A DNA stretch of 64,000 bases, taken from positions 1-64,000 of the forward strand of contig DAHUYN010000006.1 of NCBI GenBank assembly GCA_027315165.1, written 5' to 3'. This stretch comes from Thermoplasmata archaeon (GTDB taxonomy: Archaea; Thermoplasmatota; Thermoplasmata; Lutacidiplasmatales; UBA184). The translations under genes were made by a program, and so were the position numbers. Below are positions 41,841 to 50,434 of this stretch, piece by piece (within the stretch, counting starts at the first letter, position 1; every line of letters starts with the position of its first letter). The notes beneath the pieces were generated by a model. The model made no database searches, had not been told where the DNA came from, and was given only the letters and a program-made list of their open reading frames with translations.

Positions 41841-42005
41841 GACGGGTCCACGCCGTGACCGCTAATGGGGTTGAGGGGCTCTGAGGGGGGCGGGCGACCG
41901 AAGCGCTTATGAACAGTGGCCATCTCGGCGCCGCCACTCCCGCCATGGAGAGGGCCGGCGCTCGCCGCTGCGCCCCCGGTCCGCGGGAGACAGCACGCCA
42001 GGAGT

Positions 42006-42782
42006 GTGAGTACCGCGCCCAAGAACCCCAAGGCCGCCGAGGAGACGCCTGCCCCGGCGCCCGAGCCGAAGGCTGACGCCGGCGAGGCGACCGCCCCGAA
42101 GAAGGAGCGGTCCGGCAAGGAGGGGAAGGAGGGCAAGGGAAAGGGCAAGGCCGGAAAGGCCGCGACTCCCGGCGCGCCGACGAAGAAGGCGCGCGTGGCG
42201 CCGGACAACCCCAACTTCCGCTACATCGTCCGCCTGGGCGGCTCGGACCTGGACGGCCTCCGACCGACGGCCCTGGCCCTCACCGGCGTGCGGGGCGTCG
42301 GACTGCGCATCGCCGAGGTCGTCTGCCGCCTCTCGGCGATCGACTCGCGCGAGATGATCGGCAACCTCCCCGAGGCGACCGTCACGACGATCGAGTCGGT
42401 CATCGGCGCCCTCCCCGAGAAGCTCCCGCCCTGGATGCTGAACCATCCCCAGGACTACGCGACCGGCGAGGCGCACCACCTCATCTCGGGGGACCTCGAG
42501 ACGGCGCGGCGCGACGACGTCAATCAGATGAAGATGATCCGATCCTACCGCGGCGTCCGTCACGAGCGCGGCCAGAAGGTCCGCGGTCAGCGGACCCGCT
42601 CGAACGGCCGCACGGGCATGGCTGCGGGCGTTCTCAAGAAGGCGGCGAAGGAGGCCGCGGCCGCGAAGGGCAAGGAGACGACGACCGCCGCCGCAGCTCC
42701 GGCCGCCGCCCCTGCCGCCGCGCCCGCCGCTGAGAAGAAGCCCGCCGCCGAGAAGAAGCCCGCGGCGGAGAAGAAGGCATAG
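42006..42782 (+). CDS. rpsM: 30S ribosomal protein S13 with long charged N- and C-terminal extensions
   Basis: Core NFRYIVRLGGSDLDGLRPTALALTGVRGVGLRIAEVVCRL ... SYRGVRHERGQKVRGQRTRSNGRTG. GTG start at 42006 inferred; tail has 3x PAAEKK. Confidence 0.93.
   Translation: MSTAPKNPKAAEETPAPAPEPKADAGEATAPKKERSGKEGKEGKGKGKAGKAATPGAPTKKARVAPDNPNFRYIVRLGGSDLDGLRPTALALTGVRGVGLRIAEVVCRLSAIDSREMIGNLPEATVTTIESVIGALPEKLPPWMLNHPQDYATGEAHHLISGDLETARRDDVNQMKMIRSYRGVRHERGQKVRGQRTRSNGRTGMAAGVLKKAAKEAAAAKGKETTTAAAAPAAAPAAAPAAEKKPAAEKKPAAEKKA
42723..42776 (+). repeat. Three in-frame 18-bp repeats encoding PAAEKK at the S13 C-terminus
   Basis: cccgccgctgagaagaag / cccgccgccgagaagaag / cccgcggcggagaagaag in tandem. 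Confidence 0.9.
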
Positions 42783-42787
42783 CGACC

Positions 42788-43375
42788 ATGGGCGATCCCA
42801 AGTTCCTCCGACGGACCTACGACACGCCGAAGCACCCGTGGGAGGCCGGCCGGATGGACGAGGAGCGCAAGCTGCTCGCCAAGTACGGCCTCAAGAACAA
42901 GCGGGAGCTGTGGAAGGCCCAGTCGGTCCTCCGCGGGTTCCGCGGACAGGCCCGAGAGCTCGCGGCCCGCCTGCGGGCCGGTGAGGAGCAGGCGCGACGG
43001 GAGACCGACGGCCTCTTGGGGCGCCTCACGCGCCTCGGTGTCCTTCGGGTCGGCACGCCCACGATCGACGATGTCCTGTCGCTCCGCACCGAGGACGTCC
43101 TGCACCGCCGCCTCGAGTGGATCGTCTTCTCCAAGGGCCTCGCGCCCACTGCGAAGGGCGCGCGGCAGCTCATCGTCCACGGCCACCTCTCGATCGGGGA
43201 CCACAAGGTGACGCGGCCGGGCTATCTCGTGACCGCCGCCGAGGAGGCGCAGATCGCCTACGCGCCGTCCAGCGGCCTCAACGACGACGGCCACCCGGTG
43301 CGCGTCGCGATCCGGGAGCGCCAGCAGGGCCCCTCGGAGCCCGTCGCGGCCGCCGCCGGACCGGGGGTCGTGTAA
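42788..43375 (+). CDS. rpsD: 30S ribosomal protein S4
   Basis: DPKFLRRTYDTPKHPWEAGRMDEERKLLAKYGLKNKRELWKAQSVLRGFR; S4 domain GARQLIVHGHLSIGDHKVTRPGYLV. Confidence 0.97.
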   Translation: MGDPKFLRRTYDTPKHPWEAGRMDEERKLLAKYGLKNKRELWKAQSVLRGFRGQARELAARLRAGEEQARRETDGLLGRLTRLGVLRVGTPTIDDVLSLRTEDVLHRRLEWIVFSKGLAPTAKGARQLIVHGHLSIGDHKVTRPGYLVTAAEEAQIAYAPSSGLNDDGHPVRVAIRERQQGPSEPVAAAAGPGVV

Positions 43376-43759
43376 ATGCCGAAGATCGGGATCGCGCACA
43401 TCTTTGCGAGCTACAACAACATCCACATCACCGTCACCGACATCACGGGAGCCGAGACGCTCACGAAGGCGACCGGCGGGATGGTCGTCAAGGCGGCCCG
43501 CGACGAGTCGAGCCCCTACGCCGCGATGAAGGCCGCCGACCAGATCGCCGCGGTCCTCAAGGAGAAGGGCTACGACACCCTCCACGTGCGCGTTCGCGCC
43601 CCCGGCGGCAGCCGGTCGCGCTCGCCCGGCCCCGGCGCCCAGGCGGCGATCCGGGCCCTCGCACGCGCCGGCATGCGCATCAACCGCATCGAAGACGTCA
43701 CGCCGATCCCCCACGACGGAACGAAGGCAAAGGGTGGCCGACGCGGCCGCCGGGTCTAG
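43376..43759 (+). CDS. rpsK: 30S ribosomal protein S11
   Basis: [50 protein letters not shown] ... [24 protein letters not shown]. Confidence 0.97.
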
Positions 43760-43764
43760 GCGCG

Positions 43765-44610
43765 ATGGAAGTCCTGATCCAGGAGCTCAAGCCGCGCGCC
43801 GCGCGGCTCGAGCTGACGGGGCTCTCGGCGCCGCAGGTCAATGCGATCCGCCGCACGCTCCTGGCGGACCTTCCCAAGCTCGCCATCGAGGACGTCGAGT
43901 TCCACCTCGGCCCGATCCGCGACGAGGCGACCGGGAAGGACTACGACTCCTCGACGAGCATGTTCGATGAGGCCGTGGCCCTCCGGCTGGGGCTGCTGCC
44001 GATCCCGACCGACCTCGGGCAGTTCCGCAAGCGCTCGGAGTGCACCTGCGAGGGCGCAGGATGCCCCCACTGCCAGGTGATGTACTCCGTCGACAAGAAG
44101 GGCCCCTGCACCGTCTACGCGCGCGACCTCACGCCGCTCGGCGACGCGTCCCTCGCGATCGTCGAGCCCGAGATCCCGATCGTCCGCCTCGGCGCCCGGC
44201 AGGCGCTGTTGGCCTACGCGACGGCGGTCGTCGGCACGTCGCGCGAGCACGCGAAGTGGCAGGCCGCGCATGCGGTCGGCCAGTCGCCGCGCCCGCACGT
44301 GCGCATCCAGAAGCACGCGGGCTGCACCGATGCGTGCCTCAAGCGCGTCTCGGGGGTCTGCCCCGTCAACATCCTCGAGTTCGGGAGCGGCAAGCTCTCG
44401 GTCACCGACGAGACGAAATGCATCCTCTGCGGCGCCTGCGAGAAGGCGTGCGAGCACGGCTCGGTCAAGGTCGAGCCGGACGAGAGCGACTTCTTCCTGC
44501 GCTTCGACACCGACGGCTCCCTCTCCGCGCGCGAGGCGCTCCGCTTTGCGCTCAAGGACCTCAAGCGGCGCTTCGAGGACCTTCGCGAGGCGGTCCAGGC
44601 GATCCCCTAG
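43765..44610 (+). CDS. rpoD: DNA-directed RNA polymerase subunit D, with 4Fe-4S ferredoxin-like domain
   Basis: LSAPQVNAIRRTLLADLPKLAIEDVEF, ALRLGLLPIPTDL, CILCGACEKACEHGSVKVE. Confidence 0.96.
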   Translation: MEVLIQELKPRAARLELTGLSAPQVNAIRRTLLADLPKLAIEDVEFHLGPIRDEATGKDYDSSTSMFDEAVALRLGLLPIPTDLGQFRKRSECTCEGAGCPHCQVMYSVDKKGPCTVYARDLTPLGDASLAIVEPEIPIVRLGARQALLAYATAVVGTSREHAKWQAAHAVGQSPRPHVRIQKHAGCTDACLKRVSGVCPVNILEFGSGKLSVTDETKCILCGACEKACEHGSVKVEPDESDFFLRFDTDGSLSAREALRFALKDLKRRFEDLREAVQAIP

Positions 44611-47991: not shown

Positions 47992-48705
47992 TCAGCGCGG
48001 AGGTGTCGGGGACACGGGAGGGGCGGCCGTCGCGGCTCCTCCGACGGGTCCCCTCCCACCCGCCGCGTCCCCTCGGAGCACCCGACGGTGGGCGTCGAGG
48101 AAGGCCACGAAGAGGAGCAGGTAGGTCACGAAGAGGAGGCTCAGCTGTCCCACGAACGGGTCGAGGACGGCGTGTTCCGTGAGCGCGCGGTGGCTCAGCG
48201 AGGAGAGAAGCGACGGGAGGAAGCTCCGTGCGGTGTCGCCGAGCAGGAGCGCGGCGACGGCCGCCCAGACGAGCGCGAGGACGACCAGGAGCTTGCCGAC
48301 GGTCCCGGTGAGGTGGCCGGCGGCCAGCCCGTAGGTGAGGTAGAGGAACCAGAGGAGACCGGCGACCGCCGCGCCGAAGACCCAACCGGCGGTCGGCTCC
48401 GGGACCGAGGCCGGCAGGAGGTAGGCGAGACCGACCGAGATCGCGGCGACGACGCTCAGCACGACGGTCACGCCGAAGGAGAGATGGGCGTGCCGGACGC
48501 GACCCTTGTGGAGCTCGTTCCACTCGTGTCGGCCGAGCCAGAGACTGACGAGCCCGACAACGGTGAACGCGGGCGCGAAGTAGACGAGAAGGCCGCCGCC
48601 CGGCAGGACCGCCGCCCGCGTCACGAACGTGTAGAGATCGCCGAGCCCCTCGACGAGGAAGCCCACGGAGAAGACCGTCAGCGCGAGACGAAGCGTCGCC
48701 GTCAC
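47992..48705 (-). CDS. Polytopic membrane protein, unknown
   Basis: About 6 hydrophobic segments; no recognised family. Confidence 0.65.
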   Translation of the reverse strand: MTATLRLALTVFSVGFLVEGLGDLYTFVTRAAVLPGGGLLVYFAPAFTVVGLVSLWLGRHEWNELHKGRVRHAHLSFGVTVVLSVVAAISVGLAYLLPASVPEPTAGWVFGAAVAGLLWFLYLTYGLAAGHLTGTVGKLLVVLALVWAAVAALLLGDTARSFLPSLLSSLSHRALTEHAVLDPFVGQLSLLFVTYLLLFVAFLDAHRRVLRGDAAGGRGPVGGAATAAPPVSPTPPR

Positions 48706-48872
48706 GCGGGTGAGAGGAGCGGAACCCGCCCAAGAAGCCTCGCTCGGAGGAGGCCGGCAGCGCCGGTGGGCCCGACGCCCTGCGGACCGCCCCGAGCCGC
48801 CCCTCGCGACTCCCCGAGCATGGAACCGACGGGCGGGGCGTAGCGCGCTAGGCGCCGTCGCGAGCGGAAGCT

Positions 48873-48961
48873 GTGGGACTCATTTGACAGGAATCCACGC
48901 CCTGGGACTGATTGCCCGAGTCTGGGACCAATTCGGACGAGGGACCTAGAATAAGTCCCAC
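48873..48961. promoter_or_regulatory. Clustered TGGGAC(T/C) repeat array (four + strand copies, one inverted), candidate operator
   Basis: TGTGGGACTCATT (48873), CCTGGGACTGATT (48902), TCTGGGACCAATT (48922), GAGGGACCTAGA (48939), and reverse-strand TGTGGGACTTATT (48949-48961). Confidence 0.6.
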
Positions 48962-48980
48962 AACCGCGAGCGGAGATATC

Positions 48981-48988
48981 TTTAAATT
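48981..48988 (+). promoter_or_regulatory. TATA-like element of the RHH-ftsZ operon
   Basis: TTTAAATT in an AT-rich patch about 50 bp upstream of ATG 49036, in an otherwise very GC-rich sequence. Confidence 0.55.
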
Positions 48989-49001
48989 GAAGGCCGACAT
49001 G

Positions 49002-49031
49002 TGTCTGACAAAGACCCTTACGTTGTCTGAC
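49002..49031 (+). promoter_or_regulatory. Direct repeat TGTCTGAC x2 spaced 22 bp, candidate operator near the transcription/translation start
   Basis: TGTCTGAC at 49002-49009 and 49024-49031, just before ATG 49036. Confidence 0.55.
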
Positions 49032-49035
49032 GACC

Positions 49036-49395
49036 ATGGGAGACACCTCCGAGCGCGTGACCGTTCGAATCCCCCAGGACCTGATGGAGAAGCTGAAGCT
49101 GATCCAACAGGCGAAGGGGACGCAGACGGTCTCCGATACGATCCGCGAGGCCCTCGAGCGCTACATCGAGGTCAACCTTCCTCCGCCGAACATCCGCAAG
49201 GTGGTCGTCGACCTCTCGCGGCAGGACAATCACCAGCTCGAGGAATTCGTCCGCGAGGGGAACTCCGTCTCCGTCGACGACGCGGTCCGCTCGGCGGTCC
49301 GCGAGTACATTCGCTCGAGGCTCGAGGCGGTCCCGGCGGCGACGCGCCCCCGACGTGAGGGGGAGCCGATCGCCGAGGGGCCGGGTTCCCGGTAG
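49036..49395 (+). CDS. Tandem ribbon-helix-helix transcription regulator (CdrS-like by context)
   Basis: SERVTVRIPQDLMEKLKLIQQAKGTQTVSDTIREALERYIEV followed by a second RHH-like unit NIRKVVVDLSRQDNHQLEEFVREGNSVSVDDAVRSAVREYIRSRL; directly upstream of an ftsZ-like gene. Confidence 0.88.
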   Translation: MGDTSERVTVRIPQDLMEKLKLIQQAKGTQTVSDTIREALERYIEVNLPPPNIRKVVVDLSRQDNHQLEEFVREGNSVSVDDAVRSAVREYIRSRLEAVPAATRPRREGEPIAEGPGSR

Positions 49396-49408
49396 CCGGT
49401 CAGGGGCG

Positions 49409-50434
49409 ATGGACGACGGGCTTGCGGCCTGGGCGTCGTTCCGGCCGAAGGACGGCTTCGCCGTCGTCGGACTCGGCGGCGCCGGGACCGACGCGGTCCA
49501 CGACATGGTCGAGCTCGGCATCCCCGGGGTCCGAGCCCTCGCGATCAACACGGATGCCAAGCACCTCCTGAGCCGTCCGATCGAGGAGCGGATCCTCGTC
49601 GGCCAGAGACAGCTCCGGGGCCGCGGGAGCGCGGGGGACCGGGCGGCGGTCCTCGACGCCGCGAGCGACGCCCGCGAGGAGCTGGTCCGCCGACTCCGGC
49701 GCTACGAGATCGTCTTCCTCCTCGCCGGGCTCGGTGGCGGGACGGGCAGCGCCCTGCTCCCCTACCTCGTGCGGGCGCTCCGCGAGACCGACGCGCTCCC
49801 GGTCCCGATCGCCTTCCTTCCATTCCGGGTCGAGCTCGAGACGAACCCGGAGCGCCGCGAGAACGTCCTCGCGACGCTCGACGAGCTCGAGCAGCTGGGG
49901 GGCCTCCTGCTCGCGGTCTCGAACGAGAAGCTGCGACGGTTCGAATCCCTCCCGCTCCACCGGGTCTTCCACGTTCGGAGCACCTACCTCCACAACCTCG
50001 TCACGAGCCTCGTCGACATGGTCGAGAACCCGAGCCAGATGAACGTCGACCTGGCGAGCCTCAAGGAGCACCTCCGGGGCTCCGGCGTCTCGACGCTCCT
50101 CTCGAGCCAATCTCACTTCGCCGAGCCGGAGCGGCTCGTGCGACAGGCGATCGAGGAGAGCCTCCTCGACTTCTCCCTCGAGGGCCCGCCAACGGCGCTC
50201 GTGCACCTGGACGGAGGGTCGAACTTCACGCTCAAGTCGTTCGACCGCGTGATCCACGCCCTGCGCGGCCACTTGGGAGAGCCGAGGAAGCTCATCTTCG
50301 GCACCCGACTCCACCCCGAGCGGCGCGACATCGTGCGGCTCACCGCGGTCGTCGGCGGGCTCGGACCCCGCTCCGTCCGCGAGGAGATCACGCGGGGTCG
50401 GGTCCCGAACGATCCGCTGGCCGACCTGCCGTAG
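49409..50434 (+). CDS. Divergent FtsZ/tubulin-superfamily protein
   Basis: FAVVGLGGAGTDAVHDMVELGIPGVRALAINTDAKHLL, FLLAGLGGGTGSALLPYLVRAL (tubulin GGGTG), T7-like QMNVDLASLKE. Confidence 0.88.
   Translation: MDDGLAAWASFRPKDGFAVVGLGGAGTDAVHDMVELGIPGVRALAINTDAKHLLSRPIEERILVGQRQLRGRGSAGDRAAVLDAASDAREELVRRLRRYEIVFLLAGLGGGTGSALLPYLVRALRETDALPVPIAFLPFRVELETNPERRENVLATLDELEQLGGLLLAVSNEKLRRFESLPLHRVFHVRSTYLHNLVTSLVDMVENPSQMNVDLASLKEHLRGSGVSTLLSSQSHFAEPERLVRQAIEESLLDFSLEGPPTALVHLDGGSNFTLKSFDRVIHALRGHLGEPRKLIFGTRLHPERRDIVRLTAVVGGLGPRSVREEITRGRVPNDPLADLP

Follow-up and report, generated by a model that had tools for sequence, protein, structure and literature searches.

The 64,000-nucleotide stretch of DNA analyzed here (hereafter, the window) corresponds to contig C58 in a draft genome of 2.04 Mb, the nearest named relatives of which are Thermoplasmata MAGs, Candidatus Lutacidiplasma among them. 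It contains what is probably an autorepressed operon of the CdrS/FtsZ2 type that encodes a fused tandem ribbon-helix-helix (RHH) regulator and an FtsZ homologue and that, through the operator GTCNGAC, shares a regulon with a second ftsZ and smc. The first-pass annotation had described an operon for a protein with two RHH units followed by an FtsZ homologue, as is indeed found at 49036-49395 and 49409-50434, and had interpreted it as a division switch of this type that is autoregulated at an RHH site, an interpretation that is well supported by homology, synteny, the phylogenetic tree and the class-wide occurrence of the site. The locus departs from CdrS/FtsZ2 proper in the fusion of the RHH units, the position of the operator over the predicted transcription start, the degenerate GTPase signatures and the additional sites at the second ftsZ and smc.

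The tandem RHH protein (119 aa; 49036..49395, plus strand) consists of an N unit at approximately residues 5-47 and a C unit at approximately 54-98, and its match to RHH_1 (5.9e-11, 42.4 bits against the Pfam cut-off of 20.5) assigns it to the RHH fold. The N unit weakly matches aCcr1, at 28.3 bits, below the NCBIfam cut-off of 60, and the C unit matches CdrS (NCBIfam NF058555) at 23.4 bits, below the curated cut-off of 100. In the relatives of this protein in the class, each of the two units matches the CdrS model, at 52-58 bits (about 1e-14 to 1e-16), so that the tandem RHH protein is best described as a fused double CdrS-like protein. CdrS is short and contains one RHH unit (model length 61), whereas here two RHH units within 119 aa are conserved across the class. 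As with CdrS, the gene directly precedes ftsZ2: FtsZ is encoded next downstream in 66 of the 68 orthologous loci (in the remaining 2, the contig ends after the RHH gene), and tandem RHH proteins that match over both units precede ftsZ in 13 class genomes. Thus, at the sequence level, the homology to CdrS is clear, with scores that lie below the NF058555 membership cut-off. AlphaFold models depict two helix-helix units (helices 14-27, 32-47, 62-73 and 80-98), with no confident pairing between the RHH units in either of two runs (pTM 0.40-0.41). A Foldseek search yielded nothing at E 0.001 or better and only partial RHH matches, the best of which was NikR (probability 1.00 over 47 columns, E 0.23). 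The tandem-RHH family is detected in 120 of 148 phylum genomes at E 1e-5, although the weak matches among these may be single RHH proteins; in the f19 genomes, the tandem RHH gene has no adjoining ftsZ.

The FtsZ homologue (49409..50434, plus strand; signatures GGGTGSA and NVDLAS) starts 13 bp 3' of the RHH gene and matches Tubulin (5.6e-23) and FtsZ_C (2.2e-12), with 176 bits for TIGR00065 against a cut-off of 295. The source genome holds four tubulin-family genes, namely, this one, strong FtsZs on contigs C11 and C22, and a weak one on C59. A second weak RHH-like match precedes this fourth, divergent gene on C59 (L268, 4309-4444 and 4965-5313), which is possibly a paralogous RHH-tubulin pair. 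In the tree, where the FtsZ2 references were two haloarchaeal plasmid proteins, one of them CdrS-linked, a 100/100 split separates the window FtsZ, on the FtsZ2 side, from FtsZ1 and bacterial FtsZ; the C11 and C22 proteins likewise lie apart from it. The CdrS-linked FtsZ of the Salinibaculum plasmid lies on the same side; this haloarchaeal plasmid (Salinibaculum sp. KK48) bears its own CdrS-like-FtsZ2 pair (L225, 2497-4191). The branch of the window FtsZ family is very long, and the RHH-linked FtsZs were not recovered with the FtsZ2 references as one clade, although a single clade was not rejected (p-AU 0.118). The family evolves fast: the best matches of the window FtsZ in congeners are mostly 58-70% identical, compared to 92-96% for the C22 FtsZ.

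The window FtsZ lacks both signatures that define catalytic FtsZ, GGGTG[T/S]G and NxDxx[D/E] (definitions from PMC12583498). In the T7 loop, S, T, G or N replaces the second acid in 65/65 sequences of the genus, compared to D in 22/23 comparison sequences, and this acid is also gone in other genera of the same family. GGGTGSA is the sequence of the GTP loop both in the window and in nearly all of the genus. Judging by these sequences, the family appears to have reduced GTP hydrolysis. In a few class genomes (L240, L237 and L172), RHH-linked FtsZs have badly eroded T7 loops or motifs, so that decay of the RHH-linked FtsZ may be recurrent.

Immediately before the operon lies the twin operator GTCTGAC-N15-GTCTGAC (49002..49031, plus strand; site 1, 49003-49009, and site 2, 49025-49031), which ends 4 bp 5' of the start codon. 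The first-pass annotation correctly recorded this element as a direct repeat before the ATG, with two copies of TGTCTGAC, at 49002 and 49024, 22 bp apart; GTCNGAC-N15-GTCNGAC is the better notation. GTCNGAC pairs with such spacing are expected by chance 0.02 times per 64-kb window. The pair is present in 68/68 orthologous operons (the window counted), at most 60 bp from the start codon, and, across these operons, the arms GTC and GAC are 100% invariant and the spacing is 15 without exception, with many flanking columns near random. The most common form, found in most relatives, is the inverted repeat GTCAGACAA-N11-TTGTCTGAC, of which the direct repeat of the window is a variant. The source genome contains the pair once, and congeners contain about one per genome, with none for the reversed pattern; the surplus matches in congeners are mostly G/C-centred. 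The TATA-like element noted earlier, TTTAAATT (48981-48988, plus strand), is present, and its distance from the operator is conserved, an A/T-rich TATA-like 8-mer beginning 30 bp 5' of site 1 in 41/67 orthologues; given this distance, transcription is predicted to start at about site 1.

Beyond the genus, GTCNGACA-N13-TGTCNGAC occurs in 39/150 class genomes, compared to 0/150 for the reversed pattern. Among 24 sampled class loci with the operator, 21 have it directly before a tandem-RHH gene, 1 before ftsZ alone and 2 elsewhere. Other members of the class possess variants with a single site or a different spacing, and the exact 22-bp pair is missing from several class genomes that encode a tandem RHH. 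Genome G051 has the pair directly before an ftsZ that differs from the RHH-linked one. The Salinibaculum CdrS-ftsZ locus lacks the operator, according to a search of haloarchaeal plasmids for this element beside ftsZ. Some matches precede unrelated genes or sit between convergent genes (L135, L173, L270 and L271). At L135, L175 and L270 (G053 and G205), a TATA-like sequence lies between the paired sites, with no RHH or FtsZ nearby, and the pair is a possible further target. In genome G060 (contig C8, L173, 1657-1786), two pairs 101 bp apart are located apparently between convergent genes rather than at a promoter. One 22-kb contig (G025:C50; L260 and L261) carries four GTCNGAC-N15-GTCNGAC pairs, with neither RHH nor FtsZ detected, and these pairs could represent a mobile element or extra targets.

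A genome scan for the regulon, as proposed in the first-pass annotation, recovered GTCWGACAAA four times in the source genome, and never in the reversed form, at the RHH-ftsZ operon, the ftsZ on C22, smc and one C9 position without a clear gene; the same approach, with at most one mismatch allowed, returned, for the TGGGAC array that the annotation had emphasized, only the copies in the array itself. The site at the C22 ftsZ is kept in 29/30 congener sequences, with invariant GTC and GAC and a variable centre base; the lone exception is a mis-picked start codon, and that genome has the site at the correct place. The smc site is kept in 28/28 congeners, and the identity of the gene is indicated by SMC_N (3.8e-32) and the prokaryotic SMC model (7e-93), with a partial protein as the query. 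Across the class, GTCNGAC occurs within 160 bp before 13/20 smc genes, compared to a background of 0.06 per 150 bp, and many of these sites are doublets 11-12 bp apart. In many class genomes, a ATGGGATGCA(CTC)-like stretch, possibly a leader element or another site, lies 60-110 bp before smc, 3' of the GTCNGAC doublet (L414-L432). The site is found at 7/18 C22-type ftsZ genes and at 0/37 other canonical ftsZ genes, with a Fisher p of 1.6e-4 that is optimistic because related genomes are counted separately. The C11 ftsZ has no GTCNGACAAA site, with plain GTCCGAC found in 2 of about 22 congener sequences. The sites lie approximately 20 bp (second ftsZ) and 50 bp (smc) before the start codons, downstream of the respective TATA-like elements.

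These features suggest a simple mechanism. The tandem RHH protein would recognize the 7-bp palindrome GTC-N-GAC and repress its own ftsZ2 operon by blocking initiation at the predicted start, given that two sites, two helical turns apart, cover that start. It would also bind the related sites before the second ftsZ and smc, lowering the expression of all three together, and such co-repression would tie the supply of division proteins to chromosome organization. Blocking of initiation at all three targets is suggested by the phasing of the sites at one to two helical turns and their location downstream of the TATA-like element. We infer, then, that the tandem RHH protein is the binder, that its effect is repression and that its role is in the cell cycle. 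Another RHH protein could be the binder of GTCNGAC, weaker RHH matches being also present in the phylum; the co-occurrence of the pair with the tandem RHH gene across the class points to this protein as the reader of the sites. The operator could also be real with the RHH protein activating its targets, as proposed for haloarchaeal CdrS. The two protein families are related, and CdrS of Haloferax and Halobacterium mostly acts as an activator of division genes (PMC8406309, PMC7439475). However, in the operon, ftsZ and smc alike, the sites follow the TATA-like element and either coincide with the predicted start or come after it, and inhibition is the usual outcome when an archaeal regulator binds at the promoter or further downstream (PMC8406309), so that we consider activation rather unlikely. 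Finally, the operator pair might function as RNA, GTCAGACAA and TTGTCTGAC forming a hairpin in the 5' leader that controls translation. Most orthologues indeed have an inverted repeat with 9-bp arms near the ATG, and the 5' edge of the putative hairpin coincides with the predicted start. Nevertheless, the centre bases of the two sites vary without staying complementary: 9/68 pairs in the genus mismatch, as do many class-level pairs outside the genus, and the window pair is T/T. Furthermore, the sites before smc and ftsZ use this 7-bp palindrome at different spacings, and, in some operons, it lies well upstream of the ATG. Because the centre bases do not covary, two DNA palindromes fit better, and we rejected the hairpin as very improbable; searches at the locus detected no Rfam match at E up to 1 and no tRNA nearby. 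Repression by the tandem RHH protein bound to DNA thus remains the preferred reading.

Upstream of the operon lies the TGGGACYNATT cluster (48872..48962), in which the first-pass annotation saw four same-strand copies and an inverted one. Three same-strand copies (48872-48884, 48901-48913 and 48921-48933) and the inverted copy (48950-48962) stand, with scores of 17.7-20.2 bits, whereas the purported fourth, GAGGGACCTAGA (48939-48950), scores only 4.3 bits. The cluster is non-random: all four exact TGGGACYNATT matches of the window fall within 87 bp, all 3 exact copies of TGGGACTNATT in the 2.04-Mb genome lie inside it, and the 205-bp upstream region has 4 TGGGA/TCCCA, a number reached in 0/2000 shuffles. 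It is, however, species-specific, as indicated by its lack of conservation in congeners and before orthologous operons and by the absence of the neighbouring ORF from the vicinity of the operon in all 68 relatives. Among 36 congeners, 4 have a single scattered match to TGGGACTNATT and the others none, and no k-mer of the TGGGAC type is enriched before the 68 orthologous operons; hence, the upstream alignment that the annotation had called for vindicated the TGTCTGAC repeat (68/68) and not the array. The neighbouring ORF, divergent and membrane-protein-like (47992..48705, minus strand), has no Pfam or NCBIfam match over the cut-off and is considered to lie outside the regulon. The downstream neighbours are kept, TrmY in 62/68 and DUF6015 in 58/68 relatives. 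Farther upstream, 41916-44610 looks, from ORF translations, like a cluster of ribosomal protein and RNA polymerase subunit D genes.

The array had been proposed as a remote activator or repressor operator class, and it could serve as the chief regulatory element and bind a second regulator devoted to it, akin to CdrL, which likewise has a single genomic target (PMC7439475). Three exact, genome-unique 11-mer copies within 87 bp would suit such a role, and, in a few relatives, a single, weaker inverted copy occupies a comparable position (L067, 13.0 bits; L099, 9.0 bits; L073 and L091, TGGGATTTTATT). Against this stand its absence before orthologous operons, the species-specific adjacent gene and the uneven phasing of the copies (29 and 20 bp). 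Without other genomic copies, the array has no regulon support either: allowing 0-1 mismatch, a genome scan with the cluster 13-mer found only the cluster copies, and, at 2 mismatches, 7 matches elsewhere compared to 9 for the reversed control. The scan excludes the array as a regulon motif and, together with the 36 congeners and 68 upstream regions, as a conserved operator. We therefore regard a main regulatory role as improbable, and the array is not the salient element of the locus. That the cluster is neutral, a local duplication or a relic that arrived with the species-specific upstream segment, is a serious contender, if somewhat short of probable: the copies are irregularly spaced, the cluster is not conserved and the neighbouring ORF is missing from the 68 relatives, but the copies share a common core with differing flanks and one is inverted, unlike a recent tandem duplication. 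The TGGGAC cluster is best treated as a separate species-specific element that contributes, at most, an extra regulatory input.

Among known systems, haloarchaeal CdrS-FtsZ2 (PMC7439475, PMC8406309) resembles this locus in sequence and in having its RHH gene immediately 5' of a gene of the FtsZ2 type. In the 100/100 split, the FtsZs linked to RHH genes lie on the same side as the CdrS-linked FtsZ of haloarchaea; in the window family, unlike archaeal FtsZ2, NxDxx[D/E] is without its last acid and GGGTG[T/S]G without its final G. A second ftsZ is a target in both cases, ftsZ1 in Haloferax by ChIP-seq (PMC8406309) and, here, the C22-type ftsZ by its site. The present system differs from haloarchaeal CdrS in that the two RHH units are fused, the GTCNGAC site lies at the predicted start and smc is among the predicted targets. 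In Haloferax, CdrS sites are mostly 41-110 nt upstream of the start, the genes listed for 18 sites do not name smc, and ftsZ1 falls on cdrS repression, which fits activation (PMC8406309). CdrL binds only before cdrS-ftsZ2 in Halobacterium (PMC7439475) and is reported to be absent outside Halobacteria (PMC7439475, PMC8406309). In Sulfolobales, aCcr1 regulates the cell cycle and represses both segAB and a division gene (PMC7617429, PMC12284271). It is likewise an RHH protein, the model of which the N unit of the window protein weakly matches, but it serves ESCRT rather than FtsZ division, and the window protein falls below its cut-off. According to the available portions of published surveys, archaeal ftsZ2 is often found beside a parD or RHH_1 gene, and those portions define no operator, tandem architecture or regulon (PMC8178401, PMC9871819). 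Thus, RHH genes beside ftsZ2 (PMC7439475, PMC8178401, PMC9871819) and CdrS binding before Haloferax ftsZ1 (PMC8406309) are already known; as far as our search of the open-access literature shows, the novelties are the operator, the fusion of two RHH units, the prediction that smc is a target and the degenerate FtsZ2.

More tentatively, the tandem CdrS-like repressor might link division with chromosome organization across Thermoplasmata through co-repression of ftsZ2, the second ftsZ and smc at GTCNGAC sites, and, in the family of the source genome, the linked FtsZ2 might have become a fast-evolving protein with impaired GTPase activity that forms filaments or modulates the other FtsZs instead of acting as a dynamic ring subunit. 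Little is known about the coordination of chromosome organization with FtsZ-based division in euryarchaea. The operator, which is common to the RHH regulator, two ftsZ genes and smc and is conserved in the class, including cultured members, offers a concrete, testable candidate regulon, and the natural loss of the catalytic acid in a lineage of FtsZ2 provides a second testable point.
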